Origin: Ceratodon purpureus
Lineage: Eukaryota; Streptophyta; Bryopsida; Pseudoditrichales; Ditrichaceae
DNA length: 64,000 nucleotides
NCBI GenBank assembly: GCA_014871385.1
Contig: CM026429.1
Location: forward strand, 9,109,075-9,173,074
Reading direction: 5' to 3'
Within the stretch, counting starts at the first letter, position 1. Every line of letters starts with the position of its first letter. The notes beneath the pieces are model-generated. The model did not search any database. It was not told the origin of the DNA and saw only the letters and a program-made list of their open reading frames with translations. This document shows, piece by piece, positions 9,616 through 45,166 of the stretch. Position numbers and translations under genes: made by a program.

Positions 9616-9669
9616 ATGGAAAATTGAGACCAGTGAAAAAACTCGTCACCCAAACCTTGGGCCGACACC

Positions 9670-12600: not shown

Positions 12601-15600
12601 TTTAATGCCTGCAGAGCCAACGGCGTCAGTCTAAACGCAGACAAATGTATGTTCCTCTTCTTTGCCGGAGTAATCTTGGGGTACATCGTTTGCAAGTATG
12701 GCAAGCTTCCAGACCCAGCCAAGATCAAGGACATCATGGATATGACACCACCTAAGGACCAAAAAGGGGTCCAGCGTCTTCTAGGCCTATCACAGTTTAA
12801 CCGTATTTACATCGAGAAACTCGCACATATTACTGCCCCTATCACGGCCCTGAACCATACCAAGTATACGTATCCAAGGGACTGGACACCGGCAGCTCAG
12901 ACAGCCTTGGATAAAATCAAGGAAGCCTACACCCATGCACCAATTTTGATCGCACCAGACTGGACCAAGCAGTTTCATGTACACACGGATGCTTCCAACC
13001 TAGCAGTAGGAGTTATGCTAGCCCAAAATATAAATGACAAACATGACCAACCTGTAGCCTATGCAAGCAGGTTGTTAAATCAGGCCGAGAGAAATTATTC
13101 TACAACAGAAAGAGAAGCTTTAGCCATGATCTATGCCGTGAAAAAATTTCGCCATTATCTCTTGGGAAATAAATTCAAGTTCATGGTAGACCACCATAGT
13201 TTGTCATACCTTGTAAATCAACCTCTCGTAACAGGACGGGTAGCTCGCTGGATTATGATACTGTTAGAATACGATTTCGAGGTGGTATACATACCTGGAA
13301 AGAGACACATTGTAGCAGATTACTTGTCTCGAGATACGAACACCAAGGAAGAAGGAATAGATGACTCCTTCAACGAACTCTATATCCAGGCCGCCACCGT
13401 GATTGTCCAAGATAACCAAGATTGGACCACTGAAATTATCAAGTATTTAACCACTGGAACGACACCACCAAGTCTCACTGGCACGCGAAAGATTAGTTTC
13501 GTTAGGACTACCCTTCCTTACACTGTCATCCAGGGCCAGCTATATCGCCAAGGGCCAGACCAAGTCCTTAGACTCTGTGTACCCACAAGAGAACAATCGA
13601 CAATACTGGCACACCTCCATGACGGACCTGTTGGTGGCCACCAGGGACCCGATACAACAATCAAAAAGATTTTGACCGCTAAATATTGGTGGCCAACACT
13701 TCACAGAGACGTTCATGTTTACATCAAAAATTGTCACGCCTGTCAGGTATCCACCACTAATTTCCAGCACCAAGGAAAGGTTCCGTTAAAATCCACACCG
13801 CCATTGGGCCCCTTCCAAAGATGGGGACTGGATTTTGTAGGACCTATCCGCCCAGCCACTCGTCAAGGGTATAAGTACATCTTAGTTGCCACAGATTACA
13901 CAACTAAATGGGTCGAAGCCAAGCCACTGCGCAGTAACACTGCGGTCGTCACTGCAACCTTCTTGTATGACAATATCATCACCAGGTTCGGCTGCCCCTT
14001 GGAAATAGTGTCCGACCAAGGATCGCACTTTGTCAACTCTGTTATAGAAGACCTCATGGAGAAACATATCATCAAGCACCGTACCAGTACCGTGTACTAT
14101 CCTCAAGGAAACGGCCAAGCTGAATCAACTAACAAGACCATTATCAATATGCTTAGGAGATTTGTGCATGCCAACCAAGGTGACTGGGATGACTGTCTCC
14201 CTGCGGCTCTCTGGGCTTATCGGGTAGCCACAAAAACTGCCACTCAACTCAGCCCTTTTGAGATGGTCTACGGCACACAGCCCTTGCTCCCCACAGAGTA
14301 TGTAGCACCTACCTTTCAGTCTATAAATCCAAGGGAGTATTCACCACATAAGGTCCTCGCTGCTCGTATCCAAGACATTCATCACTTAGAGGAAATTAGA
14401 GCCTTGGCGATCAAAAACATCACAGATAAACAGGCCCTGAGCGCCAAGTATTTCCAAGCCTCCCAGCCGGCTCGGGTTTTCCAGAAAGGAGACCAAGTAC
14501 TCTGGTGTCCACGGGATCCCAAGTTAAAAAGAACTAAATTTGAATCAATGTGGCACGGCCCTTTCCGTGTTCAGTTGGCATTACCCAATAACACTGTCCT
14601 CTTGGTCAACAATGACTACTATGACAACCAAGCAACTATTGTCAATGCAAACAAACTAAAACACTATCATACTACGTCGGTCCCTGTAGCACCCAAACTG
14701 AGCCTTGGCGAAATCTACACTAATCTGGCAAATGACGCACAGGACACGACAGAGCCAGCCAAGGACACCACGGTCACACAAGACCAGACCCTTGACCACG
14801 AAAAACAAGTAGAGGTCCATGTCAACCATATAAGGGTAGACGTATCCGATAGTCCGGATACCCATCCCGGATATGAACCCTGCCCGGAAACCCGGCCTCT
14901 TGATACCCCCGTCCCGGATCTCGGTTGCCAGTTTTGCAATCCGGGTATCCATCCAGGGCAAGTGAGATGTCCCACGACAACTCTAGGCCACCTTGGACAT
15001 AACTACCTAAACGGTTTTGGTAGGTCTAGACTACTCAGCGCGCCTAGAGCTCAGCTTCCATCAAGTCTACTCACTCCTCCAACTCCAAACTCACGATTTC
15101 TCAACCATCGCGTCAAGCACCTTGGCCGCCATGGACTCTCCAGAGCAGTCACACCCAGCAGAGCCTACCACTCCATGAAGGTAGGTCACACTCATGAGCA
15201 ACTCGCACTCCATGGCCCTGGGCATCAGGATCACCATGATCAGCTCCGCCTGAATCGGACTCAGCCGCCACAGTCCACGGACAGCTCGCCAAAGCGCGCT
15301 CACCATGTCCAAATCTACCCCCAACCGTCCCACCGCACCATGGAAACCACATCAGAAGCTCTGGGCAAACTTCTAAAGCACCTCCCTCCATTCTCTCTTT
15401 CTTCCTCTCTCAGAGTTAGGGAGACCCAGTCCCTCCAACACCACGCCACAGCTCACGGCCGCCTCAGTTGTTCGCTCCTTGTAGTTCAGCATAGCGCCCT
15501 CTTAGGATTGTTACACAACATGGCTTCCAAGACCGCCATGGGCCCCATCTACAGTCCGCGAATGGTACGCGAGTGGAAGAGGAAGCCAGACGGAGCATGG

Positions 15601-23056: not shown

Positions 23057-23068
23057 CTCCACTACGAC

Positions 23069-23137
23069 CAGCGACGCTATCTTGTGAGCGGTGAGCGGTG
23101 AGCAGTGAGCGGTGAGCACTAAAAATTCAAATTTTCA
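23069..23137 (+). repeat. Left terminal inverted repeat of the giant MULE
   Basis: CAGCGACGCTATCTTG, then five GTGAGC(G/A) heptamers, then an AT-rich tail (CTAAAAATTCAAATTTT). Matches the right end over ~65 bp with a few substitutions. Confidence 0.9.
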
Positions 23138-23402
23138 CCTAAAAATTTGAATTTTTAGTTTTTTTTTTCGAATTTTTTGAGAGCAATCAAACAATGATGA
23201 GCAATTTAGGACACGTCGTTGGAATATATGAATGCAAATAAAGTAGACCCTATAACCGTGGAATCAATCAAATGTGAATGGTTGGAGGGTTTAGGGTACT
23301 GTTTAAGTCACATACAGAATGTATATCCATTTTTTTTTAAAATTTTTTTTATTGTATTTCTGTGGTCGCGGAAACGAGAGAAGAATATTTCTAAGGTATG
23401 AA

Positions 23403-23440
23403 GGAATATTCTTCTCTCGGATCCGAGAGAAGAATATTCC
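23403..23440. repeat. 38-bp perfect palindrome centred on GGATCC
   Basis: Each arm is 19 bp reading GGAATATTCTTCTCTCGGA. A partial third copy of the arm (CGAGAGAAGAATATTTC) lies about 30 bp to the left. It lies between the TIR and the 3' end of the transposase gene. Confidence 0.9.
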
Positions 23441-23647: not shown

Positions 23648-25018
23648 CTACTGAAGCGGTCCAGCAACTTTGGCCATCTCCAGAACACGCATAACTTCGT
23701 TGAAGCTGAAGCTAGGGGCGTGCATAAAAGTATCAACCTTGTAATCCATCTCACATAGATAGCGGAAGATATAATAAACATGTTTGCAGTACTTCCACTG
23801 TCCTCTTTTGCCAAGGGTTTCTGAAGTCATTTTCATGAAGTCGGGGCAAGTACATCCAGGGAAGTCCGTGATGGTGATACAATATATCGTTTCACTTGGA
23901 CTCTTCAAGGAGATGACGCAGCCAAATCCTGGATATGGAATCGATGTGACATTTGTGATCCAATAGTTGTTCATGAGACCCGCGCTGCTCCACTTGTTGC
24001 GGTGGTCGGAGGTAGGAGCGTCAGAACTTCTCCTGATGGCATATCCGTTTCAAGTCGTCGGGTGTGTATCCGGATCGACAGGAACCGGGAAATGACTCCT
24101 TGGAAGCGGCATATTAGCAGAGACTTGGAACTGACAACGAGGTGATAGTATTCCACGTTGTTGGAGTTGGAAGCCGGCCTCTTCAAGAGCCAAAATCTCT
24201 TTGATGGTCAAATTCGTGCCCATTTTCACAGGCCAAGTCTGCGGGATAGATGGCCAATCGATCACAAACGACTTCTTTGTGCCCTTCACACATCTATTAA
24301 TGTCATCGGCGCAAAACCAAAAGTCAGTAGAAATCTGGCGATCGGTTCTGAACTCCTTCTTCAGCCCTACATAGGTAGGAGCAGGCGTACCATGCGTACC
24401 TCGGCGCACTCGGGTATCGCACTTCTCATTCGTATGAGCCTGCATTGCTTGGCATTTTCGGTTAGACTTGCCGGACAGTCTGGCAATGTGCCACTTAGAG
24501 GGGTCGCAATCTGTCTCCTGCACTGAAGTAGTGTGTTCAACACCGGAGTCAGGTTGAGAAAGAGCCTCCTCAATGCGTGCTCTGGTGGATCTCGTGCCAT
24601 CACGAGGAATGGAATAATTCACTGTATCATATCGATGCGAGTCATGACTCGAACCGGGCGGCAAATCTAACTTCCGTTTTGTAGATCCAAAGATCTCTGC
24701 ACCTTCCAAGCCTCCTTTCTTCGTCAATATATCCTCGGCTCCCGGGTAGGAATTAACTGCCTCAGCAATCAACTTGGGATCACTAGAGCGTTGAGCGTGG
24801 CGTAAATGAAGTTCTGATCTGTCCGGACCTTTACCGCCCTTTCCTCCCTTCAGCCAAGATCGGTAACTTGTGATCTGCATGAATGCTCGGATCATATCAT
24901 CCACTGTTGCCTCGTACAAACATGTCATTGTATTTCCTGATTGTTGAAGCCATCTGTTATGCACGGTTTCCGCAAGGTTGCAGGAAGGCATGTCGGCTCT
25001 CTCGTCAAGGGTAAGATC
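23648..25018 (-). pseudogene. MULE transposase, last exon with SWIM zinc finger
   Basis: Begins after a good acceptor (CCCAG at 25023-25019), in phase with the preceding exon. It encodes ~456 codons: a helical region (DERADMPSCNLAE...VHNRW) typical of the segment after a MULE core, a Lys/Arg- and Ser-rich linker, a small zinc-like region, then a SWIM finger near the C-terminus (CTC...CKHVYYIFRYLC). SWIM fingers C-terminal to a DDE core are a hallmark of MULE transposases. One in-frame TGA lies at 24050-24052, immediately before the SWIM part, so the finger would be lost from the protein. The reading frame is otherwise open to the terminal stop at 23648. Confidence 0.8.
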
Positions 25019-25121
25019 CTGGGAAATACAATAAAATATATCATGTCATTTTCAGGATTAAAGATAAAAAGCAAGCTATACTATACTACTTGACGGAAGG
25101 TTTAGAGATGAATGAACTTAC
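25019..25121 (-). other. Intron of the transposase gene
   Basis: 103 bp; donor GTAAGTTC after CAGCTC, acceptor TTTCCCAG. Removing it joins the two frames in phase 0. Confidence 0.8.
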
Positions 25122-25966
25122 GAGCTGCATCGAGCCTCCCCATTGTCTATACCGATAGTGCCAGAAAACCATCCAATCATTTAGATGACGCCTTCCTTCT
25201 TCAGTTGTAGCGCCTGACGAAAGCCACCACCCGCGGATGACATTGTACTGCGCTTCTGCTTCCTCCTGGGTCTTTGCGTCCTTCCATACTTTGCACAAAG
25301 CTTTGTGTTGGTCTTGAAAGCTTGGCAAGATATTCCGGGAAGTAGCCCTCTGAAGGCACTTTGTCCAGTGGAAAAGACAAGTGCGCTCCCGTTCTTCCAT
25401 AGGGTCATTGGGGTCTCCGTTCCCATACACCTTCCGAACAGCGTGCCAGTTGGCTCCAGCATTGTCAGCCATGAATCCTTTGAAATTTGTATTTGCAAGC
25501 CCGTTTTGCGCATAACTTCATTGAGCTGGAGCCAAAATAACTCCTGAGCAGCAGCATCTTAGGATTGCATGTCACAAAGGGCAATTGTCATAACTTTACA
25601 ATACTTACTGTCATAAACGTGGCATGCCATAGTGGTCCAGTCAGCTACACGCCTAACATGGTCGAACATGATCCAGCAGTCTTGAAGATCACCTCCAGGC
25701 TGCATGCGCTTCACCAGATCCACACCGCTTCATGGACGATCAGTGGATATCTTGAACAGAAACACCTTGCCTTCATTCTGTCCAGGGAATTGATTACGGT
25801 GGATGAAATCAAAGTTGGAGTAATCCTTCAGCTCCAACATGCTATATGTGACTCCTCTCCCTTGACGGAAAAACCTCTTCGATCCAGAAACAAAATTGCG
25901 TATATTTGGTGAAGAAAGAGTCTCAAATTGGTCCATTACAGCATCCATAGATGCTCCCCAAAGGTG
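25122..25966 (-). pseudogene. MULE transposase, catalytic-core part of the split exon
   Basis: Continues in frame from the 35146-36442 segment once gypsy element 2 and one copy of its duplication are removed. It carries a likely first catalytic Asp (IMFDHV), the second in FMADNAGANW, and CLFHWTKCLQR, which is the C/H block that follows the second Asp in MULEs, then helices with WW. Damage: TGA at 25730-25732, TAA at 25559-25561, and a one-base frame slip near 25497-25507 in an A/G-rich run. The final catalytic Glu cannot be assigned by eye. Element 2 ends at 25972. Confidence 0.75.
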
Positions 25967-25971
25967 ACTGC

Positions 25972-26627
25972 TGTTACCTGCCCAAGGGATTCGGAAGCAT
26001 GGAAGACTGGGAAGGCACAGTGAAGGCATGGAAGTTGGTAGACTTCAGTCCCAGCGGTGGTACTACTAGTGACAACAAGGACTCCTAGGCAGTATCAAGT
26101 AGTATAAATACTAGGATGCTTTACAGAGTAGACACTCTTTAGTTGGTACGAGTCGTGGTTCGGTCATAGAGAAATAGACTCTGGTTTTGTAACTGCCCCT
26201 GGCCTCGGTCTTGGGTTCCATGGCACACCTTGACTCCCAGGGAGACACTTCCATTAAGACTAAGTAAAGCAGCCCTCTTTTGATAACTGTTGGCCCCTTT
26301 CTTCCCCCACACACCTTACTGTCTGATTACTATTCCTATCTGTTTCCTACACTGACTTGTCTACATTGATCCTTAGCTTGAGTATTTCTCTCACCTGTGT
26401 ATGATTCATCTAGTCTCTCAGTACTCTTAGCTTATAACGTACAAGGCTCCTTGGGGGCCTTGGGATTCTCCATTTCTCTCTCTCTTGGCCACGCTCTAAC
26501 CCTCTCAGACTCTTCCCGCCCCTGCTATGCTACTCAAGATAACTCACTAGGCCCGTAACCTCTCTTAGCCCCTGCCTTCCCTGGTCCCCTTTCACACTCA
26601 CCGTCCATCCTAGATCCCAGTATAACA
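25972..26627 (+). repeat. Left LTR of element 2
   Basis: 656 bp; contains a TATA box TATAAATA at 26103-26110 that may drive the element. Confidence 0.95.
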
Positions 26628-26630
26628 TTT

Positions 26631-26647
26631 TGGCGACCATGCTGGGG
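26631..26647 (+). other. Primer-binding site of element 2
   Basis: TGGCGACCATGCTGGGG, identical to element 1, three bases after the LTR. Confidence 0.75.
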
Positions 26648-26702
26648 ATGGCGTGTTGAGTGTTTGGAAAAAACATACTTGAAAAAATCCTAGGATAACA
26701 CC

Positions 26703-29700
26703 ATGCCGCCACGAAAAGTTGCCGCAGACAGAAACAATGATGCAGAAGAAACTGCACAACAAGACGACCCTGACCCCACAAAGGATTTCCTACAATGGAT
26801 GAAACAACAAATGACTGACTTGGTTGCCAAAAACGATGCCACGAATGCCAAGTTAGAGATGCTCAGCCTCCAATACCAGAATCTCCAAGACAGTAGAATA
26901 GAAGGGGTAAATAACATACCCCCCCAAACATCTGGGAACCCCTTGGAAGCTAGTAGATCCCCTACACTTCCCCAAGAAAACCACACCGCTGCTACATCTC
27001 TTAGCGGTGGTGACCTAGAGAGACATGCCAAGTTTCCCAAAATCCCATACCCTGTATTTGATGAATCAGGGGACCCGGATTGGCACATCCGCCGTTTTAA
27101 AGTTATTGCTCGCACAAACGGGGTGTCTAATACTGCAGATTTACAAAATATATTTGGCACAACACTCCAAGGAAACCATATTAATTGGTACATTGATTTT
27201 GAGACAGACCACGCCCACGCAACCTGGGATGACATGCAGCGAAGCTTCTTGCAGAAATTCCGAAAACTCAAGACAAGTTCAGAAATCTTGAGAGCCCTAG
27301 GAACCATAACTCAGGACCGCAATGAACCAGTCGATAAGTTTTACGACAGATTTAAACAATTGGCGGACAAACTGAACCAAAGGCCAGAGGAAGATTATTT
27401 GTGTGAATGGTTCAAAAAGGGGCTATTACCTTGGATACAGCAAGGAATTGTCATTTGAGGAGTCAAGACACTAAATGACATCCTCACCGCTGCTAATGAC
27501 ATTAGCCGAGAACTGGAGGTCCTAAACAAAAACCAAGCACCCTTGTTACCACTCCCAGCCTACCGAGCAGAGCCCAAAACCACGGCCCAACCATGCAATA
27601 CATGTGGCAAAATACACCCAGGCCGCTGCTGGTTCGCCTCTGGGAATTCCCGAGTGGATGAAAATCGACGTCCTAGAGCTACTGCAACCGCAATGTACCC
27701 AGACGAGGTCAACGTGGATGCATTCCAACCAGGGCGTGGTGACGCCTGTTGGGAATGTGGCTCCCTTGAATACCATCGGAGCCAATGCCTCCTAGTTAGG
27801 CAGCGTTGGGCCCAATATCGACCACCATCGAATAACCAAGGAACTACGACAATCCCTGGCCCTAGGAATAATAACCTGCCCCGAAGGGGGGGTGTGACGT
27901 TCACGGAAGTCCATGGTCCTGAAACAAACGTATCCACAATTAGTACCGCCGTGGTCAGTACCCGCTCCAAGGCTCCCTTGGTAGACCACGTGGTGGAACA
28001 TCGAAAACCATTCCCTGAAGGCCACTGGGACCGATTGCATGAAATTAGAACAGATTTACAAAGGGGGTTAGAACAGTCAACCAAGGACCCCGGTATGCAA
28101 GCAGTATTAGATGCCACTAATGTTACCATTACATTATCCAAGTTGATCCAAATCAGCCCTGAGCTCCAAAAATATTTACAGCAAGCCACATTACCTAGTA
28201 CGAGTGTCGATCCAGCAGTGGTTGAAGTCAATGCCACCACGCTTGACCCGGATGCAGCAGTAATCTACCTTCAACTAGGAAATCACGAACTCACTAATGT
28301 CCTGGTAGATGGGGGATCAGGAGTAAAGGTAATGAGTAACCATTTACGCAAGCAACTCGGTTTGCCTCCTCCTAAGACAGCCCAGTTTATCCTGAGAATG
28401 GCCAATGATGCTCCAATCACTCCACTAGGGATACTATCCACGGTCGCTATCACTACTCACGGAGTCTCGACCCCGGCCACGTTTGTCATTATAGAGATGC
28501 CAAATAGCAGTAATTTTCCAGTCATTCTGGGAAGACCATGGCTCAGAGACATGAATGCTATCCACGATTGGTCCCGCAACCAAATCCGTATCCATAGGCA
28601 AGGAAAAACCGTAGTCATCCCAGTAGATGGATGCATAACCAGAGCTAGAGCCGATCAGATACGTCATAATGCAGGTACAAGCTGGGTCCAGGGATTATCG
28701 CAGGATCAAGAAGCACAAGTATTCCACGCCAACCCAGACTTGGTCTCCTTGGCAGAAATTCACTTGGCAAGTTTGGTCACGGAACAGGAAAAACTGGACA
28801 TACCAGCCCATTTTTCCCAGGAAACTCAGGAAACCGTCACCATCGATGCGACACCAGCCAAGGAAGCCTTACAAACCAAGGTAATTACTGGATGGACACA
28901 TGGATCCAAGGATAAAGTGGAACTGGTAAATCTGGGAACAGCGGAAAACCCCAAGTTCCTCAAAATTAATGCGGATGCCCCAAGTCAGATCAAACAGGAA
29001 ACTATCAAGTTGTTCCATGAATACCATGATATATTTGCATGGGGACACGAGGATCTTAAGGGTATCCCACGTACCTTGGCTGAACATACTATCGATTTAG
29101 TCCCAGACGCCATACCAGTACAGCAACGTCGGTATCGAATGAATCCAAACTATGCAGAACGGGTCAAAGCAGAATTGGATAAACTTTTAAAAGCGAATTT
29201 CATATCCCCGGTAGACTCGGCCCCTTGGTTGTCTCCCATGGTCATCATACCCAAGAAAAATGGCACACTCCGTATTTGTGTGGATTTTCGGAAACTGAAT
29301 GCAGCAACCAAGAAAGACCACTACCCCTTACCCTATATGGAAGAAATTATAGATGAAGTGGCCGGCCATGAAATGTACTCATTTTTGGATTGTTTCTCAG
29401 GATACTACCAAGTAGCCATGGCCGAACATGACAAAAACAAAACCGCGTTCTCCACGGAATGGGGACCCTATCAATTTGAGAGAATGCCTTTTGGCGCTAA
29501 AAATGCACCCATGACATTTCAGCGTGTCATGGAGCTTATCTTCGGACCATACTTGAAACAATTTTTCAGAATCTATCTAGACGATGGAACAGTCTATGGC
29601 CACATGAAAGACCATGTTATGCATCTAAGACAAATATTCCACGCCTGCAGAACCAATGGAGTAAGCCTCAATGCAGATAAATGTATGTTCTTGTTCTTCG

Positions 29701-32700
29701 CTGGGGTTATCCTGGGATACATTGTCTGCAAATATGGAAAACTCCCCGACCCTGCAAAAATCAAGGATATCTTGGACATGACTCCTCCCACTGATCAAAA
29801 GGGGGTACAAAGACTCCTAGGACTCTCCCAGTTTAATAGGATCTACATTGAAAAATTGGCCCACATCACGGCTCCCATCACAGCCTTGAATCACACCAAG
29901 TATACATATCCCAGGGATTGGACCCCAGCTGCCCAGGAAGCCTTGGAAAAAATCAAACTGGCTTACTCCAACGCTCCAATATTAATCGCACCGGACTGGT
30001 CCAAGCCGTTCCACGTTCACACGGATGCGTCTAACATCGCAGTAGGCGTTATGTTAGCACAAAATATCAATGGGAAAAATGACCAACCAGTAGCATATGC
30101 TAGTAGATTGTTAAATCAAGCAGAACGTAACTATTCCACTACAGAAAGGGAAGCCTTGGCTATGATCTACGCTGTAAAAAAGTTCCGGCATTACCTTTTA
30201 GGCAACAAATTTCGCTTCATGGTAGATCACCATAGTTTATCATATTTAGTGAACCAGCCCTTGGTCACAGGGCGAGTGGCCAGATGGATCATGATTCTCT
30301 TGGAATATGATTTCGAGGTAGTCTATGTCCCAGGAAAAAGACATGTCATGGCTGATTACCTTTCCAGGGACTCCAAGGCAACCGAGGAAGGCATTGACGA
30401 TTCCTTCAACGAACCCTACCTCCAAGCAGCCAGCCTGGTCCCTGATTTCCCTGACGATTGGCACTCAGATATTATGCTGTACCTTAGCACAGGCACAGTC
30501 CCTGCCAAGTATACGGGAACCAAGCGAATTAGTTTCGTGAGAACTACACTACCCTACACCCTCATCCAAGCACAACTGTACAGAAGGGGGGCAGATCAGG
30601 AAATTCGACTATGTGTGCGGACAGCTCAGCAGCAGGAAATCATTCACCACTTACACCATGGTCCGGCAGGGGGTCACCAAGGGACCGAGACGACCATCAA
30701 GAAAATTCTACTAGCTAAGTATTGGTGGCCTACATTACATAGAGATGTGCATACCTATGTAAAAAATTGCCACCCATGCCAAGTTTCGACTACCAATTTT
30801 CAACATCAAGGCAAGGTTCCCTTGAAACCAATTCCTCCCCTAGGTCCCTTTCAGCGTTGGGGCTTGGATTTTGTGGGACCTATCCGCCCTGCTACCAAAC
30901 AAGGATACAAATATATATTAGCAGCCACGGACTATACCACAAAATGGGTCGAAGCCAAGCCATTGAGAAATAACACTGCTGTTGTTACAGCTACTTTTAT
31001 TTATGAGAATATCATTACTAGATTTGGATGTCCCTTGGAAATCGTCTCGGACCAAGGATCCCATTTTGTTAATGCCGTGATAGAGGATCTGCTCAATAAC
31101 CACATTATCAAACATAGGACAAGTACCGTATACTATCCCCAGGGTAATGGCCAAGCCGAATCTACCAACAAGACCATCATTAACATGCTACGAAGATTCG
31201 TGCACGCTAACCAGGCAGACTGGGATGACTGCCTACCAGCAGCTCTGTGGGCATATAGAGTAGCCACCAAAACATCCACGCAGCTCAGCCCATTTGAAAT
31301 GGTTTATGGTACCCAACCCTTGTTGCCCACGGAATATATTGCACCCACTTTCAGCTCTCTACAAACTCGAGACTATACACCCCACAAAGTTCTGGCCGCC
31401 CGGATACAGGACATACACCACTTGGAAGAAATCAGAGCCCAAGCCATCCAAAACATTACTGCAAAACAGGCCCTCAGTGCTAAATATTTCCAAGCAAAAC
31501 AACCACCAAGATTGTTCCAGAAAGGTGACCAGGTTCTTTGGTGTCCAAGGGATCCTAAGCTAAGAAAATCCAAGTTCGAATCTATTTGGCACGGGCCATA
31601 TAGAATACAATTGGTACTCTCAAATAATACTGTGTTATTAATTAATAATGAAAATTATGACCATCACGCAACCATGGTAAATGCAAACAAACTCAAGCAT
31701 TATTTCACCTCGGACCCTGCCCCAGTTCCAGCTATGCGCCTAGGTGATCTCCACAAATCCTTGGCAGCCGAGGCTCAAGATACCACGCCCACCTTGGAGA
31801 CCATGGACCCTGCCCCCACACCCACCATACCCGAAATACATGTTAGTTATATCCACGTTCAGCTGAAGTCCCCTACAACTCAGCACGACATGACACCCCC
31901 AGTACTCAAGACATCCCGAATCATGGGGCCTAGGCCGCCACCATCCTCGCTAGCTCTCCATGATTCCCAGCCCACCAAAAGGCCATCGGGCTGTCTCCAT
32001 CCAAAACCCCGGGTCACTTCTCCGCCCCCACAGCCCTTGGCCTCCTCTCCTTCTTCTTCCTCAGGCCCCCCACCTCCCTTCCCCCAGTGTCTTGGAAACT
32101 TGGTGTCGTGCTGCCCCCTGCTCTTCATCTCCGCGCACACGCTGTTGCGCTGCTCCAGCTTCCCTGCCTCCTGTCTCCCACATCCCTACGCATCTCCGCC
32201 TCTCCATTTCCTCGCCCCGTGGGTGCGGATTCTGCTCCATCTCTTCCTGCAGTCAGTAGAGAGTGTCTCAGTTAGTATGTCGCCTAAAAAACCGCAGCCG
32301 CCCATCTTTGTTCCTCGACAGATCATCGAATGGAAGCGACGGCCCGATCTCATATGGCAAACGAAGACGGGGCTCCATCGGTACTGCTCCTTGATGAAGG
32401 GGGAGGTCAACATCGCGCACTGCCAAGCCTTTCTCGCATCCATGAGGGAGCACCGAGAAGACGAGCCGCACCCCGCAGGAGTCGTGGAGGGGATACTGGT
32501 CCAGTACTCCAGCCGATACTTACATAAGTTCTTCGGCTGGGATGGTACTGGAGCCACCGAGTGGAGCGCAGACTGCAAGTTTCCAAAACCCGACCTCGCC
32601 TCCCATGTCAAGGACGAACAGGTGAAGGACAATGGCAGGTATGATGTCTTTGCATTGGGTGAAGTTATGAAGGATCCCTGGTTTGCTCGGATGCGTGGTA

Positions 32701-34439
32701 TCCTCAGTCAGGTGTACTTCCAGAACAATTGCAATGGGATCACCCCCGAGCAATTGTGCATCCTGCTCATGGCGGATCAGGGTGAGAAGATAAACTGGGG
32801 ACTTTTGGTAGATGAGCATTTTCGCATCCAGCTTCGAGGACACCGTCGCAGCTTGGAGTACTCCAGCCCGATTGGCCCATTCCTAACTGCCTACATTGCG
32901 CACTACCTGGCTTTTACGCGTCGCAACAACCAGCCCCCGGTTATGGGAACGTTCCTTGACGTACAGAAGGAGCTCGCAGCCAGGCCACAGCCCGATCCTT
33001 CAGCCCCTGGCCCAAGCAAACGCCCAAGACACGCGGAGTTGACCCTGCCACCGACAATCTCAGCTGCAATTCACGAGGGACCGCGGACGGCACAATTCCA
33101 GGCCCAAGTCCAGGCCATGGTCACCTGCATGACAAACATGCTACAGTTCATCAGTGGGGCGGAACAGGACATGGAGACCAGGAAGGACATTCAGCAACGC
33201 CAATTGAGCCTAGCCGTCCAAGCAGCCCAAGCGAAGGCACAAGCACAAGTCGAAACAGCAAGGAACGAGCTTCAACAGCAGTTGGAGGAGGCAAACCAGA
33301 TACTTGCTAATTTGAGGAACCGAGTTGCTAATCAAGACTTGGAGCTCGCAACGACCCAGGAACAGGTAGACATGCTTACCAAGGAGAAACAAGGGGTTCT
33401 GGAACGAGCAGAGCGACTGGAGCATCAAATCCTTGAGTTTCGTGCACGTTGCAAGGAGTTGACAGAAGCGCACGAAGCCCTAACTCGGAAGCTTGGTAGT
33501 TCCGGCCTCGTTCCGCCAACTGCTGAAGAAATCGCCCGCATCCAGCAGGAGCGCATGGCTACAGAGCAGGCGAGGGAGACCTTTGAAGCAAACAAGATTG
33601 GCTGGATCCACGATGCGGCCCGCACCATCGCCATCCATGCATATCGTATTCTCCAAGGGTCGCCACCGACTGCCCCAGAGCCACCGCAAGACTTCATTGA
33701 TCAATGTATCGATCAGGCACTGGCAACCTTGGATGGTGGAGACACTGACCCAGACTGGGAAACCATGGATCTGGATCTCCTCGACACCCCGCCTCGTGAG
33801 ACCTTACTGGTAGCTCCGGATGCTGCAGCACCTCTATTGGTGAATCCCGTGGTACAGCTTCCAACGCTGCATACCCGAGCCCCCGTGATCCTCGACCAAG
33901 CCAACCCGGCAGAGCGAGTCGACATTCCGGACTCACTGACGGACACTGAGATCACTCCACAGCCTTCACCACGTATGCCAATCCCAGCCCCAGCTCCTCC
34001 AAGCCCGCCTCGCCCTACGGTACACATTCGCTCTCAACCTATTAAAAATCACAAAGATGCACTAAAAAAGATTGAAGAGGAGTTTAGCCTAGAGGTAGAA
34101 GCCAGTGATGAGAGTGAGGCCGAAGAGGAACTAGAAACTGCTGTGAGTGAGGTCAAGAAGTATTTTGTTGCTCAGGCTGATCTGGTCTCCATCTATGGGA
34201 ATCCCGAGTCAGAAAATGTGCAATGCCTTGCCTGTAACAGGCTCCTGGGGAAGACGGTTTACGATGTGTACCAGCACGCAGTGACCTCTAGGTCAAAACA
34301 CAACTTACTCCAGCGAGGAGTCGCTGCCGCCATAGCCACACTGTATCAGGACCAAGCTCCCCCTCGACGCCAAGGGCAGGTACCCCGCGAGGAGACGCGA
34401 CCAGATCGACGCCCAGCCTCCCGACGCTCCCGAGGATGA
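26703..34439 (+). pseudogene. Gag-Pol polyprotein with C-terminal extra domain, one stop in Gag
   Basis: A single frame of 2579 codons interrupted only by TGA at 27456-27458, where element 1 has an Arg codon (CGT). Gag, two zinc knuckles, protease ([11 protein letters not shown]), RT with YLDD near residue 958, RNase H, integrase with HHCC and DD35E, and the extra C-terminal region are all recognisable and collinear with element 1. The second-domain ATG is at 32277 (residue 1859). The C-terminal finger is [11 protein letters not shown]...H...H. The stop lies near the end of the Gag capsid-like part, upstream of both zinc knuckles; without suppression only a short Gag would be made. Everything after it is open. 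Confidence 0.9.
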
Positions 34440-34470
34440 CTCAGCAATTCAGGGACGAATTGCAAGCTTC

Positions 34471-34484
34471 GAAGAACGGTAAAA
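34471..34484 (+). other. Polypurine tract of element 2
   Basis: GAAGAACGGTAAAA adjoining the right LTR; same terminal GGTAAAA as element 1. Confidence 0.65.
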
Positions 34485-35140
34485 TGTTACCTGCCCAAGG
34501 GATTCGGAAGCATGGAAGACTGGGAAGGCACAGTGAAGGCATGGAAGTTGGTAGACTTCAGTCCCAGCGGTGGTACTACTAGTGACAACAAGGACTCCTA
34601 GGCAGTATCAAGTAGTATAAATACTAGGATGCTTTACAGAGTAGACACTCTTTAGTTGGTACGAGTCGTGGTTCGGTCATAGAGAAATAGACTCTGGTTT
34701 TGTAACTGCCCCTGGCCTCGGTCTTGGGTTCCATGGCACACCTTGACTCCCAGGGAGACACTTCCATTAAGACTAAGTAAAGCAGCCCTCTTTTGATAAC
34801 TGTTGGCCCCTTTCTTCCCCCACACACCTTACTGTCTGATTACTATTCCTATCTGTTTCCTACACTGACTTGTCTACATTGATCCTTAGCTTGAGTATTT
34901 CTCTCACCTGTGTATGATTCATCTAGTCTCTCAGTACTCTTAGCTTATAACGTACAAGGCTCCATGGGGGCCTTGGGATTCTCCATTTCTCTCTCTCTTG
35001 GCCACGCTCTAACCCTCTCAGACTCTTCCCGCCCCTGCTATGCTACTCAAGATAACTCACTAGGCCCGTAACCTCTCTTAGCCCCTGCCTTCCCTGGTCC
35101 CCTTTCACACTCACCGTTCATCCTAGATCCTAGTATAACA
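34485..35140 (+). repeat. Right LTR of element 2
   Basis: 656 bp, three substitutions from the left LTR, followed by the ACTGC duplication. Confidence 0.95.
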
Positions 35141-36442
35141 ACTGCCTCTTGCAGTAGGACGGATCAGAGCATCGGCAAGGTACTGCTTGCTGGCCGCTAG
35201 AACGATAGCAGAGTTTTTGGCGTTAGGTGTCTTCTGAACCTCCTTAGCTATGCAGTCAAACATGATATCCATGGAATCTTGACATCTGCCTTGAGATACA
35301 GGATGTCTATGACGTCCTAAATGAATTGCCGCACGGGTCATATCATTGTCTGAAGACGACACATGATAGATCCTAGCCTCGCACAGTGCTAGACAAGTAG
35401 GAGGTGTCTGACATACTTTGCATGCTAAAGTAGATTTCTCTGTGGGGGAGCCTCCCACAGAGAAAGGTACTAAAGCTACGCCTGACCATTCAGTGCTATT
35501 TACCATCCCATTATTCCTGCAGATGTAATCACAACTCATGTTGGGACATTGTAAGTGTCCGGTACAGGATGACTTACGATATGTGAGGCCATACTCGTTC
35601 TTGATGTTTGTGGTCATGGTCTTGCACCAGGTGTGGCCATCATACTGCTTGCTCATCCCGTCCATTCCACCTCCGAATGGATTTGGAACTCCTTCCGATA
35701 TAGGGGGCAGCTCGAAAATCTTGTCTCCATCGTAAACTGGCGGTAAATACTTCACTTGTTCATGTTCAATACTGTCAAAATCAATCTTTGATAATTCTGA
35801 TCGGGAGCCCCTTCTTGATGCTGTCATTCTGATGGAAAACATAATGCTCCTGGTTTTTTTGGAAGTAGGGTGAATAGGTGGACGCCCTGTAGACAATGAC
35901 GCAGACATACTAGAACGACTACCCTGTCGAGATGGACGAGCTGAGTCTTGGGATCCACGGCTCTGAAATGGATTTGACCTAGTTTCTCCTAGCTTGATCT
36001 CACTGTGAGTGTCATCATCCGAGTCACTCAACAAATGTACTGAGTTGTCACTGGGTTCAATTTTGACAGATGCTAGACCAGGAACTTGAACTGTTGACGT
36101 GGAGGGGGGAGGGGTTAAAAGAACAGTAGACTCAGACATCTGTGCATGTGATAACCCATAAACCTTGAAAGTTCCAGTGCTAAGAGTCCAGACGTAACCA
36201 TCGGGTGTACTATCCTTGACTTGAAATACACACTCAAGAATCTCACCATTATCATCAAAGATCTCTTCTTCCACGTATATAGTCCCAGCTCTAAACCCAA
36301 ACCTGAGGCTAAGTAATCGCTCCTCCACAACTACTTTATTGTCTGGACCTACAGACATCACAAAAGGAATACCTCCATCATGAGACCGTAGAGAGGCCAT
36401 TCTAAGTGTACTATAGAAGATAGAAGAAGTACAATCATGCAT
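35141..36442 (-). pseudogene. MULE transposase, N-terminal part of the split exon
   Basis: Opens at ATG 36442 (a second ATG 14 codons on could be used) and runs ~434 codons to the gypsy insertion; the few codons beyond come from the LTR. Residues 1-100 form a beta-rich unknown domain. Residues ~130-215 are Ser/Arg/acidic and look disordered. Residues ~280-400 hold a zinc-chelating region (C-x3-H-x2-CPN-x2-C, then L-x-C-x2-C-x-TPPTC-x3-CEAR, then IHLGRHRHP) that resembles the WRKY-GCM1/FLYWCH-type DNA-binding fingers found at the N-termini of MULE transposases. The last part leads in frame into the catalytic core at 25966. Confidence 0.8.
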
Positions 36443-37146: not shown

Positions 37147-40100
37147 ATGAGGGAAGAGGAGGACCCAAGCCCAAGAGTGCCGAGGGCTCCTAGATCATGT
37201 ACAACTAGAGGTAGAGGGAGAAGGCGAGGTTCAGGTTTTAGTAATCCGAAGCAGGTGGCGGCCCAAAAGAGACGGAAGGAGAAAGTCGCTCTTGACCGTA
37301 TTGCAGAAGTGGATCATAGTTCAGATGATCCCAAGCATCTCAAAATCAAAGCATTAGCCACCATATGCCAGGTATACCATATCGTGCTGTTTGCTATGTG
37401 TAATTGACTAATTGTAAGTAATTTGAAATAATGCATAATTCTATTTAATGGATTACAGTAGAATTATTTTATTTTACTAGGAGGGTAAGGGGCATTAAAG
37501 GCAGTCGCCATTGTATTTTTTTCTGCATTTTGCCGGAAAGGATTTTCATTGCACAAGTACAGTACAAACTCACAGAGACTACACTCCGAGGAAGTGCAGA
37601 GCTATTTGACATTATGTTAATAACCGGTGAGCAATATCTAGGTTTAGGCCACTTATACAAGGGACGGACTTCGGATGATATCGACGAACTGTCAAGTGGA
37701 GAGAGTTGACTTTTTGACAAGTGCAGTGTTCGGTCTGCAGAGCAGCTTGCCGTCGGGAGCTGGAGGAGTTGTCGAGGAATTCCAACGCAGCGACCCAACA
37801 CTAATTCTATGCAACGAGGCATGGCTTCAATCTGTAAGTGCTTAAACAATGAGGTGGATCACGAGTTCGTTTTTTTTGTTTTGGGTTGAGAGGTACTCGT
37901 TCTGTTGGTGAATGCGGACTGTTCCTGGTATTTCTCTCTGATTGTGTCGAGTCTGGGGTGGGGACTGTGCCGTCAGTTGGTCCATTTCGTGTACCAGTCA
38001 AGCTTGTTGCAAGTTTAGTACTAAGCTGATTTAGTGTTAGTTGATCAAAGTTGTTGCAAGTATTGTGGTGCGCTGCTTTCGTGGTTATCAGCTTGATGCC
38101 TCTAGCAATTCATTTCTAACCGAAACCCTAGAATTGGATTCAGGATAATCGGGTGAGGGGATTTGAGGAGGGAGGCACTGTTGAAACTGTATCGGAAATA
38201 GAAGATTCGGTAAGTCCTGGCCTGGAGAATATTCTGTGGACAATCGTTATTATCTTGCAAGCGATTTCCAAGCTCGGGTGTGGAATGGCTTTGCAGTTTA
38301 TGAGAGGATTGGTTGTTTTGCGAACTTATTGGTTTGACACGGTTCATGCAGGAACGGGAGGGTTTCGTTGAGGGGCGAGAAGAAACCAACGAAACTGGAG
38401 CTGCTGAATCGCAAGCTCTCGACACTTGGGCAGCTTCGGTAAGTGAACATGTTGAATTTACTGATACTTTGAATAAGTTTGTTTGATTTCTGAATGTTGC
38501 GTGGTGCAGCTCTCATCCAAAGGGGATCAGAAGTTTGGCAAGTTGGTCTACCAGGATGCTCTGGCTGAGAGTCTGACTCTGAGCTTCTCAGATCATTTGG
38601 TTGAGACACCGAAGTCGACGTGGCTTGGCTTGGCGCAAGCATACGGCGGTGTGGTACCGTGGTTCATGGATTGGCGGGACAATGTAACGGAGTCTGGGCG
38701 ATGCACGCGAGTACATACTAACATAGACATTGTAACTGCTGCAGGTGATTCAAATTGAAAAAACACCGACAGAAGAGCGGACTGTTTCTCAGGAGGGGCA
38801 GGAAGACAAGTCAATTTGGAACTCGAATTCAGTGAAGGTACGATTGTGATGTGCATGGAGTGTGTTTGCGAATGAGGAGTGAGTCTAGGCTGTAGAGGAT
38901 AGAATTGAACTGGCATTTAGCATTTGTCAATATGCGTCTTTTATTGCTCAAGTTAAGGCTAACCTGGTTTAATGTTTTGCTTGCAAATGAGCAGCGACCA
39001 GGGGATGGAGGAGGTGCACAGCGCGTCCACGAGCATGGATCGTGACGATGGTGGTTTGGCTGAGATGGAAGACCAGCTCCGGAAGGCTGTGCAGGGTAAC
39101 TCACATCTTGCACTTCAAGAAGCAATTGACATACCAAGCATGGAGATTGATGTCCCACTTTGCAGGATGATTCCTATGAAGGATGTGAGGGAGCCATTGA
39201 AGACCGACATACAGAAGCTAAAGGCAGAATTCAGCCATGGGTACAAGCGAGGTTCATCTTGCTTCTATCTATCTCTGAAGAGCTTTAGAATGGAAGAGTC
39301 AAGTGTCACGGAGGCAGAGAGGTCTTCCTAGTCCGACTTATGGCGCAAGGAGGACATTGAGTTCGAGACACGTTTGCTGTCAAATCCAGACTTGAAGAAA
39401 TACTCCAACCGCTATTTCTATGTATGGGACGGCAATCATCGCCATATCGCTTGGTCAGATTTGATCAACACCCTTCATAAGCACGATGCGTCTTTCCATG
39501 TTTCAGCCCGCTCAATCATCATCAACGTCACGCCTGCAAATTGCAACATGTTGTTGCATGCCATGACAGATTGGAACAAGTAAGTAATTCATTCAGTTTG
39601 AACTCATTACCAAGTAAAGTACATAGATTAAATTCATTTATTTCATTTTCAAATGCTTGATAATTTAAGTGAATGGATTGACTGTCAACTGTTTGCAGAA
39701 AAAATGAAGTTGACCATGTTGTTCAACATTGGACCCATGAAGTGAAGCGGGTCCAACAGCTAGGTCTTTTGGACTTTGACCAGTTAAAGGGTCTGGTGAA
39801 AGATGAAGATTTGCAAGCAAGCATTATAGAGTGGGGACGCATGAAGAACAGAAAGTGGTATCATCTGTTATATGATGCATTCATTGACTTCTTATACGAG
39901 GTGAGAATGTTCAATTGATTTAAGTTGTCAAATATGAATGACTAATGACTTCTACTTTTGTAAAAGGCAAAGCACTAAGAAATGATGTATGTATTTTAGA
40001 GAGAAATTTCAGCCGCCCAAGAGGAAGCTATTCGGATCTACAGGGACACATTAGTCACAGGTCGCGGAGAGGACAAGATGGGAAGTCCTTCAGAGCTCCT

Positions 40101-43100
40101 TGCCGTTGCGAAGAAGGCCGTAGCGGCGAAGAAAACCTCCCTCTCCACTAAATTGGACTGATACTTGGCCATTGCCAACCCAGCTAATGGCGAAGGCTTC
40201 TTAAAAGAGGTATTTTTTTTTCCAGAAATTATCACAGGCTATGTCATTTTAATGTCTTTCTTGGCTCAAGTCGGAGACGCTGCGTGCTGGATGCACGCAG
40301 CTGGGGTGCCGTATTTTATTTTTTGTTTCATGTGTGAGCTGCTGCGTGCATCAAGCACGCAGCCATGCAATAATTTTCGTTGTTTGAATCCCGATGCCTC
40401 TGAGCTCGGTTGCTCTTCTATGCATGCTTGTTAAGAAAAAGTGAACTCACAAGGCACCCCCGGAGGTTCCCTCGGATCCGAGGGGTGCCTGGAGGTCTTT
40501 AACTTAACTCACTTTTTCTTGAACTGGTGCCTCGGTGACTGAGCTCGGCTCTAGCCATCTCTTTTTTTTTTAAAAATTTTATGTGTCTCATTGAACCCTC
40601 GGGTGCGGTATCATGCTGGTTGTAGCTTGTGCTATGTCATTTTAATGTCTTTCTTGGCTCAAGTCGGAGACGCTGCGTGCTGGATGCACGCAGCTGGGGT
40701 GCGGTATTTTATTTTTTGTTTCATGTGTGAGCTGCTGCGTGCATCAAGCACGCAGCCATGCAATAATTTTCGTTGTTTGAATTCCGATGCCTCTAAGCTC
40801 GGTTGCTCTTCTGTGCATGCTTGTTAAGAAAAAGTGACCTCACAAGGCACCCTCGGAGGTTCCCTCGGATCCGAGGGGTGCCTGGAGGTCTGTAACTTAA
40901 CTCACTTTTTCTTGAACTGTTGCCTCGGTGAGTGAGCTCGGCTCTAGCCATCTCTTTTTCTTTATTTATTTTATGTGTCACATTGAACCCTGTTGCTGCG
41001 ATTGTGGACTCTTTCTGCAAGCACATTAGACTGGATGCACGCAGTGGGGTCTGAAATATTTAATGGATCGTTTGCTTGCCTCTCACCGAGGCATTGACTT
41101 GCCTGTTTTTTGTTCTGATGCCATATACATTTGGGATGTTTTTCTTTTGCCTACTTAGCAATATGTGTTCACTAATGCGTGCATAATGCAGGCTTTGGTT
41201 ACTGTCTGTTGTTTACTGCTTGCTGCAAGTAGGAAACTTTATTCGTGAATTAATAATTTCTCAATCGAATATGGTTTAGTTTGTGAATATGTACTTCGTT
41301 ATGTTATCTTTAAAGGAACTTTGTTTTTGTGAGTGCGTATGTTTTAGAGGTCTATCTGACTGAAATGATTGTATAATTTTATGCAGATCATTCGCCATTT
41401 TGATGTCTATCAAAGCGACGCAGAAATGACCGCGGAGAAGTTGCAACCTTTTGCAAGCGCCAAGGTTGCTCCCAAGTACAAAGAGAGATGGCTAAAGTGG
41501 TGGAACATGAGCAAGCAGAGTCGGGTGGAGTACAACTTTCCTCCAACACCAGCGTCAGACTTAGTTCTTCGAGTTTGGATTGATCAAGCAGCCTTCTGGG
41601 CTGGGGTAAGCACAATCATTATTTCTCCTATAAATTGAATTGATCTATGTCTTCTAATGTTCCAATTGAAATTAATACCATATTCTTTCTAATGTAATGG
41701 ATTCTAATATTTTTGGTTTGTATCTTATACCGCAGTTAGAAGAGGAGGCTGTCCTTCGCTATGCCAAGATTGTAGAGGAGGATATCATAGTTTTGAGGAC
41801 AAAGGATTTACCTAATCCTGTAGATGATATTGGCTCGTGGATTGAGGCTCATTCTCTGACTCTTTGGGGGAAGGCCTGCACTGGTTTCTTCCCTAAGGCT
41901 GGCACTTTTACCAAGAAAGAGCCATTTCTCAACCAAGCAGGGGCTGAGAATGCTATGAAGAGGGTTATATTGAGGTACTTCTGGAGGGAGTTGGTAGTTA
42001 AGGGTGCCATTGATAGGAATGATATTCCACAGCGTTTTAAGAAATGGGTGGATATTTCTAGCTCTGAGTGCATTTTTACAGATTATCAGAGGAGGCATTT
42101 TCGAGCTCCACATCTTGTTCAATGTCCCTGGTACCTTGAATCGAAGGAGAATGAGAAGTGCCCTGGGGATGAGAGAGCTTTGAAGGCTAGCTGTGACAAC
42201 TTGGTGCTGCAGCTTGGAGATGAGAATACCATGAATTTGGAGGAGAATGCCTCGGAGGTTGGTGATGATGCTTCTCTTCCTGAGAAGCAAAGGAAGAAAC
42301 TAGCAGAGAGGAAGGCAAAGGCTGAGGCAAGGATGAAGGAGAAGGAGGACAAGAAGAAGGAGAAGGAGAAAGGAGTCAAGCTCAAGAGAGAATTGGCAGC
42401 AAGGAACAGGGAGCTTGCCAAGCTTGTTTTGAAGGAAGGGCCAGAGAAGATGTTGACTCATGTTGGCATTTCTCCTTCAGGTAGCAGCATGGCTGCTGCC
42501 ATAGTTCCTGTAGCTCCTCAGGTGCCTCTTTTTTCTACCCCCATGCCTTCTCAGACTATCTACACCATTCCATGCTCGCAATTGGATGAGGTAGACACTA
42601 GGGTTGAGATCATCAATGACTCCCCTATGGGCATTTTGGAGCTATTTAATGATCTATCAGAGGGGGATGAGCCTGAGGTTTGGATCAAGGTGAAGGATTG
42701 GATCAAGGAGAATCTCGGTGGCAAGGCTAGGAATTTTGGAGGTGAAGAGGCTGAGGCTGCTGTGGACCTCATCATTTTTGATGTTCCAGAGGATTTACCA
42801 GTTCCAGGTTTAGGGCAGGATGGTGACATTCCATTCTGGAACAAGCACCCCAAGATTTCAGCAGGGAAGAAAATGGAGTCTTCGTGGATTAAGGCCCATT
42901 TTGAGTTTGCTATGCAGTTTCTGCAGGATGATGGAGCCTTGATTGTATTCTACCCTGATTCAAAGTTCATTTCGAATGAGCTTCTTTCCTGGGCAGAGTG
43001 GGCTAACTTTCAGGAGGAGGCCAAGTGGTTTGCAATCAATGGCCTGCCATTGACTATTCCAGATCGTTATCCATGGGAGCACAAGACTTTTATGGTCAAG

Positions 43101-44051
43101 TGCTTCATCAAGATGGAGAATGCGGAGGAGGGTGTTCCAAGGTCTAAGTTCCAGTTTCATGATAGGGCTGAGCTTGGTGCCCAAGGCATCAAGCTCTCCA
43201 CTGATGGTCACTGTACGAACTTGATTACTGCAGATTCTCTGACTTATAATTCAGAGACAGGTTTGCCATTCAGAGGTCCTAGAGAGAAGACTTCTAACCT
43301 CTTGCAGGCTCTGATTGATCTCTGCACTGTAGAGAATGGCATTGTCATGGATCTCACAGCTTCTACAGGTATTTTTTAGTCTTTCTGTTTTGTGATTGTT
43401 GTTTTCTGTATTTCTTTTTATTCTTTAATCTCATGCAATGGAGCTTCGATTTGTCTGCAGGTGCTTCCATTTGAGCATCGAAGAGTCTCCGGCGCCATGT
43501 CATAGGCTTTGAGTATGAGACCACCTTGTACAAGCAGGTATTGTTGCCTCTTCTTCCAAGTGCAGAAGAGGTTGAGTCTGCTCCAATTCCTGTGCCATCA
43601 CCAAAGAAGAAACGTGCCATTGATTCAGATGATGAGCCTGAGAGGAAGACTGCCCCCAAGCGTTCTTGTAAGTAAGTCTCTACATTCATTTGACATTTGT
43701 TTATTTGTTTAAAAAAAATTAGTTCAATATTTATTAAACTGTGAAATTGTCATGTGCAGTCGGAAGAAAGCGTTGAAGAATGACGTTGGTGGCTCTGTTA
43801 TCTCGCGCCATCTTAGCAAGATAAAGAGTCCAGTTAGACCTTTAGAGCTTCCACATTATGCAGAGATGCAGGCTCAAGCTTATTTAGCTGCTCCTTCTCC
43901 ATCTATTTCATCTAACAGAGATAGCATTTGTCGTGATGCTGAGATTTATCTTGACATAGCTGCAGAAGTTGCCAGAGTGGTATTATCTAGTGATAGCGAT
44001 TCTTATGATGGTTGGATTGGTACTTGTAGTGATGACGAGATATCTACTTGA
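37147..44051 (+). pseudogene. Long multi-exon gene with DNA amino-methyltransferase-like C-terminal domain
   Basis: At least twelve exons, mostly checked for phase: 37147-37371; one ending 37833 (start unresolved); 38144-38209; 38352-38438; 38510-38653 (or 38683); 38745-38837; 39002-39579; 39699-39900; 40000-40209; 41387-41605; 41736-43368; 43461-43671; 43760-44051. About 1400 codons. The N-terminus is basic with a GRGRRRGSG patch; exons at 38.1-38.8 kb are acidic. The 41736 exon has a charged Lys/Glu coiled coil, then VDLIIFDVPEDLP (near 42765-42800), FWNKHP, ALIVFYPDSKF, and at its end IVMDLTASTG, continued after an intron by a helix and HVIGFE. That matches motif IV then motif I of beta-class N4/N6 DNA methyltransferases, but the catalytic (D/N/S)PP(Y/F/W) is altered to DVPE. 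Damage: TAG 39329-39331, TGA 40159-40161, TGA 43472-43474, a slip near 37701. Methyltransferase assignment is inference from motifs. Confidence 0.65.
40238..40990. repeat. 393-bp tandem duplication inside an intron
   Basis: Units start GCTATGTCATTTTAATG at 40238 and 40631 and stay nearly identical for ~360 bp. Each holds inverted repeats: CTGCGTGCTGGATGCACGCAG, CTGCGTGCATCAAGCACGCAG, and a fold-back from AAGAAAAAGTGA to TCACTTTTTCTT with CCTCGGATCCGAGG at its core (40470-40483 and 40863-40876). These may be a small fold-back element duplicated with its surroundings. Confidence 0.85.
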
Positions 44052-44890: not shown

Positions 44891-45089
44891 GGTCTTCATG
44901 GCGTGGGATTGATAGGATATATGAAAAAATAATAACCCTTTATTCGGGTATGAATCGGGTGTAAATTTCTACATTTATCAGTTTAGAAGCCATTCTTTTT
45001 AGAATATACCCTAAAACACTTTCGACGGTCATAGGTCCCATATATGCCATGTCATGCAAAATCATCTCAAAATATCAAATAAATAGTCA

Positions 45090-45156
45090 AAAATTTGAAA
45101 ATTTACTGCTCACCGCTCACTGCTCACTGCTCACCGCTCACAAGATAGCATTCCTG
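45090..45156 (-). repeat. Right terminal inverted repeat of the giant MULE
   Basis: On the minus strand it reads CAGGAATGCTATCTTG, then five GTGAGC(G/A) heptamers, then GTAAATTTTCAAATTTT; inverted relative to 23069-23137. CCACTACGAC follows at once. Confidence 0.9.
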
Positions 45157-45166
45157 CCACTACGAC

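Follow-up and report, generated by a model that had tools for sequence, protein, structure and literature searches.

We analysed a window of 64,000 nucleotides from the moss Ceratodon purpureus (contig CM026429.1, positions 9,109,075 to 9,173,074), in which a DNA transposon carries a transposase gene and an accessory gene (Table 1). The accessory gene is most likely part of a Mutator-like element (MULE). Three parts make up its product of ~1,100 residues: a ParB/sulfiredoxin (Srx)-like domain, a middle part and an amino-methyltransferase (MTase) domain of the permuted beta class. An earlier note, made from the sequence alone, had described the MTase-like part and overlooked the upstream ParB-like exon. 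It had placed both genes in a unit bounded by inverted repeats and a duplication, and this was confirmed: CCACTACGAC was found on both sides, and the inverted termini aligned over 99/100 nt with 82% identity. The two genes run in opposite directions, the transposase on the minus and the accessory gene on the plus strand, and therefore form a head-to-head pair. This arrangement is all that the sequence offers for the promoter they were said to share.

The strings LIIFDVPEDLP, ALIVFYPDSKF and VMDLTASTG, on which the MTase assignment had been based, lie in one open frame, with HVIGFE following after an intron. The amino-MTase fold, on which the earlier note had staked its proposal beforehand, was present in the predicted structure. 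The model has a Rossmann amino-MTase fold with motif IV preceding motif I, the beta-class order that had been read from the strings. All 49 PDB chains listed by Foldseek at E ≤ 1e-3 were amino-MTases (the Foldseek and VIA lists are confined to relatives present in those libraries). Comparison with a profile of canonical enzymes (L008 omitted) gave a score of 69.7, whereas the highest score among 60 column shuffles was 27.0. Ten homologues were found, with 38–71% identity, and a ratio of nonsynonymous to synonymous substitution rates (dN/dS) of ~0.1 placed the MTase part under purifying selection. A chance origin of the strings was ruled out by the Foldseek result, the predicted fold, the profile score relative to the shuffles and the purifying selection.

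The catalytic motif (D/N/S)PP(Y/F/W) was seen in none of the 13 proteins covering motif IV, a count that excludes P0007 and P0013, which fall short of it. Twelve have D[VI]PE and one has DVPK, and all 13 lack the motif IV stacking aromatic. The D[VI]PE change predicts that the protein would not perform ordinary methylation. Between the two options of the earlier note, an epigenetic modifier of the element's own or a derived DNA-binding version, the latter fits better, because no relative covering motif IV has the catalytic motif. An active enzyme marking its own element with N6-methyladenine (6mA) or N4-methylcytosine (4mC), with D[VI]PE as a tolerated catalytic motif, is unlikely. It would agree with the fact that a motif I region and a motif II can be recognised, with the purifying selection, and with the suggestion that the ParB-MTase of the Ectocarpus transposon Sola1-1 modifies its own transposon (PMC12477816, in the text available), whereas the absence of the aromatic throughout speaks against it. 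So does the rotifer enzyme N4CMT, in which SPPY to APPA abolishes 4mC, although both ends of the motif are changed there (available text of PMC8885841).

The structure predicted for the upstream exon has a ParB/Srx fold. The exon is 88% identical to the C. purpureus protein M758_9G115400. An hhalign comparison with YbdM and seven phage relatives scored no higher than shuffles, with the DGxHR box as its best stretch. As a side observation, the middle part contains a conserved domain (window 41736-42200) with the motifs CPWYLE and KWxDxSSxECIF.

The pairing with a transposase recurs, a point that the earlier note had marked for checking. Of the host genome, 200 kb were sampled as 20 stretches of 10 kb (8,033 N). 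One stretch (L037) contained a ParB-MTase relative, and its upstream neighbours then gave a second complete element (C5:11989917-12005272), with the 10-bp target-site duplication (TSD) TTGCATGAGG at both ends. The SWIM exon and the transposase are on its minus strand, with 60% identity in the N-terminal exon. The ParB-MTase gene is on the plus strand, with 49% (ParB exon) and 38% (MTase exon) identity to that of the window. The two genes are thus head-to-head in two complete elements. A single gene holds both the ParB and the MTase part and runs antisense to the transposase within the element, the arrangement of a transposon-borne ParB-MTase. Each terminal repeat in the window has five GTGAGC units at 7-bp spacing (23084-23117 and 45108-45141), and GCGAGCA-type 7-bp units occupy the matching place in the second element. 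Since these units differ in sequence, the 7-bp period was retained while the letters drifted.

Further relatives were present in the sample: a transposase copy (L035), decayed pieces of both genes (L038) and a diverged ParB-MTase copy (L046:3021-6558; 28–38% identity in stretches matched by window proteins). No transposase match was found in the 10-kb stretch of L046; this copy, which lacks the palindrome described below, may have a different site or be domesticated.

A scan of prokaryote genomes returned two contigs, both from one cyanobacterial metagenome-assembled genome. Bacterial homologues in it were not accepted; a plant contaminant is the likely source, because the gene on these contigs bears introns. 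Three contigs of this public genome, AVDCRST_MAG81 (L021, L022 and L023), have intron-bearing, plant-like transposon genes, probably plant contamination. In L021, the ParB and MTase exons lie in order in one gene. Pfam, NCBIfam and PHROGs yielded sub-threshold or chance matches only, and PDB sequence searches coiled-coil or chance matches only. Viral-contig scans with two alignments returned zero relatives, and phage tblastn zero matches with P0004 and four weak ones with P0029 (E 2 to 8).

The window copy of the accessory gene is broken by three in-frame stops, as a decaying passenger captured by chance might be. Such an origin is very improbable. Relatives without stops, which the earlier note had wished to see, exist in the L021 assembly and in the second element, and dN/dS is low. 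The gene recurs in that complete element, where six tested exon stretches have no stop (a 730-codon transposase stretch has one), and also in the L021 assembly, which contains a transposase relative as well.

The transposase pieces in the window, SWIM exon included, had zero Pfam matches. L023 has a 719-aa open frame related to them (60% identity, E 8.3e-166), with PF00872 Transposase_mut as its best Pfam match (E 0.038, 13.3 bits, below the cut-off of 21). In the same assembly, it lies on a different contig from L021. MULEs are defined by a TSD of ~8–11 bp together with terminal inverted repeats. Both complete elements have a 10-bp TSD, and the window element has such repeats. TSD length and PF00872 favour a MULE over other SWIM-bearing superfamilies (KDZ), though a profile did not separate them.

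The window contains three copies of a palindrome with the core CTCGGATCCGAG, each of them within the element. In L021, it was found three times, in ~107-bp units (106–108 bp) upstream of the ParB exon, and nowhere else in the 4.8-Mb assembly, an imperfect control because much of it is presumably cyanobacterial. In the second element, 19 copies were counted. Two of them are near the left end, and single copies precede the transposase and the ParB exon; a further six occupy the intron matching that of the window, and nine follow the motif II exon. None were found in the other 19 sampled host stretches; this sample was drawn after the motif had been defined, its contents not being known beforehand. 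In 14 of 15 measured copies (window, L021, L037) the palindrome reaches past the 12-bp core to as much as 44 bp, and the arms vary from element to element. Separately, an intron unit (window 40238-40930) is repeated at 393-bp spacing, 97% over 300 nt, with hairpin-like stretches around the palindrome.

These palindromes might be mere internal subrepeats, spread by tandem duplication and unconnected to the ParB-like protein, a somewhat unlikely explanation. Tandem arrays are common (spacing ~106–108 bp in L021, mostly 145–151 bp in L037 and 393 bp in the window), L046 has a diverged gene without the palindrome, and the palindrome statistics are post hoc because the motif emerged on inspection. 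On the other side stand the sharing of the core, with differing flanking arms, by elements whose genes are 38–49% identical to those of the window, its extension in nearly all measured copies, and its presence in the matching intron of both complete elements. In addition, only 2 of 2000 Markov versions of L021 had any 12-bp palindrome in common with the window element.

We give a probability of about 50% to the reading in which the ParB/Srx-MTase protein of this MULE-like transposon loads at or near the CTCGGATCCGAG palindromes and coats the element's own DNA. Its non-standard MTase part would read or flip bases, or use S-adenosylmethionine in a non-standard way, instead of producing ordinary 6mA or 4mC. 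The element would benefit by being shielded from silencing, or by the transposase being helped to find and pair its ends. Self-recognition seems the likeliest mechanism, to which the altered MTase part may contribute base reading or a block of host modification. More tentatively, and with rather less confidence, a phage-type ParB-methyltransferase may have been turned into a cis-acting self-recognition system of a eukaryotic transposon. The ParB-like part would load at parS-like palindromes lying near an element end, between the genes, in the intron and behind the gene, and would spread from there as a clamp, and a non-methylating MTase domain would exclude or read host DNA modification, serving anti-silencing or end-pairing. 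If true, a ParB/parS-like system would be at work in a eukaryotic nucleus. Overall, the interpretation of the earlier note is supported.

Several observations weigh against the main reading of palindrome loading and coating, among them the broken window copy and the missing palindrome in L046. The core was also absent from the decayed L038 and from L022, which is partial and without the region preceding the ParB exon. The curated cut-off of PF01555 (26.7 bits) was not reached by P0001 (13.8 bits, E 0.058) or P0004 (16.2 bits, E 0.01), and the family was not listed for P0005, P0008, P0010 or L021. Pfam listed ParB for none of the 23 family members. The hhalign score against YbdM and seven phage relatives was 15.6, at the level of 100 shuffles (mean 13.3, max 21.4). 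The DGNHR box was intact in 17 of the 21 rows covering it (P0035 and P0037 fall short of the box, and P0039 was omitted from the alignment). Lastly, the mean pLDDT (predicted local distance difference test) of the two predicted models was low, 56.1 and 54.5.

Table 1 Features of the transposon in the window and of the retrotransposon inserted in it.
Feature	Positions	Strand	Remarks
Target-site duplication CCACTACGAC, left copy	23059..23068	.	Sequence
Left terminal inverted repeat, 5 tandem GTGAGC units	23069..23167	+	
38-bp perfect palindrome, core CTCGGATCCGAG	23403..23440	.	334 bp from left end
Transposase exon with SWIM-type CxCx(n)CxH	23650..24046, limits approximate	-	Motif by eye; 66% identical over 124 aa in second element
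Transposase middle exons, decayed (stops, frame change)	24050..25966	-	Open-frame relative L023
Long terminal repeat (LTR) retrotransposon inside transposase gene, outside the system	25972..35140	+	656-bp LTRs; TSD ACTGC 25967-25971 / 35141-35145
Transposase N-terminal exon; first ATG of the frame at 36442	35146..36442	-	L023 60% identical
Possible first accessory exon, basic, RGRGRRRG stretch	37147..37371	+	Model uncertain
ParB/sulfiredoxin-like exon; box DGNHR 39428-39442; stop 39329-39331	38987..39580	+	
Accessory exon 2	39700..39900	+	
Accessory exon 3; stop 40159-40161	40000..40209	+	
Palindrome CCCTCGGATCCGAGGG in exon 3 - exon 4 intron	40469..40484	.	
Second copy of CCCTCGGATCCGAGGG palindrome	40862..40877	.	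From 393-bp tandem duplication
Accessory exon 4	41387..41605	+	
Middle domain and amino-MTase-like domain to motif I DLTASTG (43350-43370)	41736..43368	+	
Motif IV DVPE	42780..42791	+	[DS]PPY in ten canonical enzymes
Exon with motif II HVIGFE; stop 43472-43474	43461..43672	+	
C-terminal exon, weakly conserved	43760..44051	+	36.6% over 82 columns with L021
Right terminal inverted repeat	45057..45156	-	82% to left one
Target-site duplication CCACTACGAC, right copy	45157..45166	.	Sequence

Two LTR elements, both Ty3-type by eye, were also noted. The one inside the transposase gene has open reading frames (ORFs) of 254 and 2326 aa across a stop, and its LTRs show 3 differences in 656 positions. 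The other (window 9637-17712) has an ORF of 2691 aa.

Among known systems, VANC of VANDAL elements and other MULE accessory proteins are likewise encoded beside the transposase in elements with short repeats, but the protein is not known to be related. The canonical beta-class enzymes M1.HpyAVI, CcrM and YhdJ and the rotifer N4CMT share the fold and the permuted motif order. They differ in having their own motif IV and a DPFxGSG-type motif I, where the moss family has D[VI]PE and D[LI]T[AT][ST]TG. The earlier note knew of no described MULE with this pairing, and searches of an open-licence library found none; it had, however, missed related prior art. As far as the available text of PMC12477816 goes, the giant DNA transposon Sola1-1_Ec32 of Ectocarpus has a ParB-MTase gene on the strand opposite its transposase. 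This fusion of a ParB-like domain with an N4C/N6A MTase (1,104 aa, antisense to the transposase) resembles the moss protein, but it belongs to the Sola1 superfamily in a brown alga, whereas the moss element is MULE-like. Similar proteins are reported for transposons of red and green algae (Petroll 2025 and Iyer 2011, both as cited in the same text). In phages, according to the sections available of PMC12704722, the ParB-CTPase fold, whose members bind CTP, ATP or GTP via a conserved arginine, is frequently fused to N6_N4 methyltransferases. The pair of folds is identical, but the phage fusions are prokaryotic and Pfam-detected, and the moss family stays below Pfam cut-offs. In these texts, as far as available, self-binding or self-modification by transposon ParB-MTases is a suggestion and not a tested fact. 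The moss family adds a conserved motif change, another complete element and one particular palindrome as candidate binding site.
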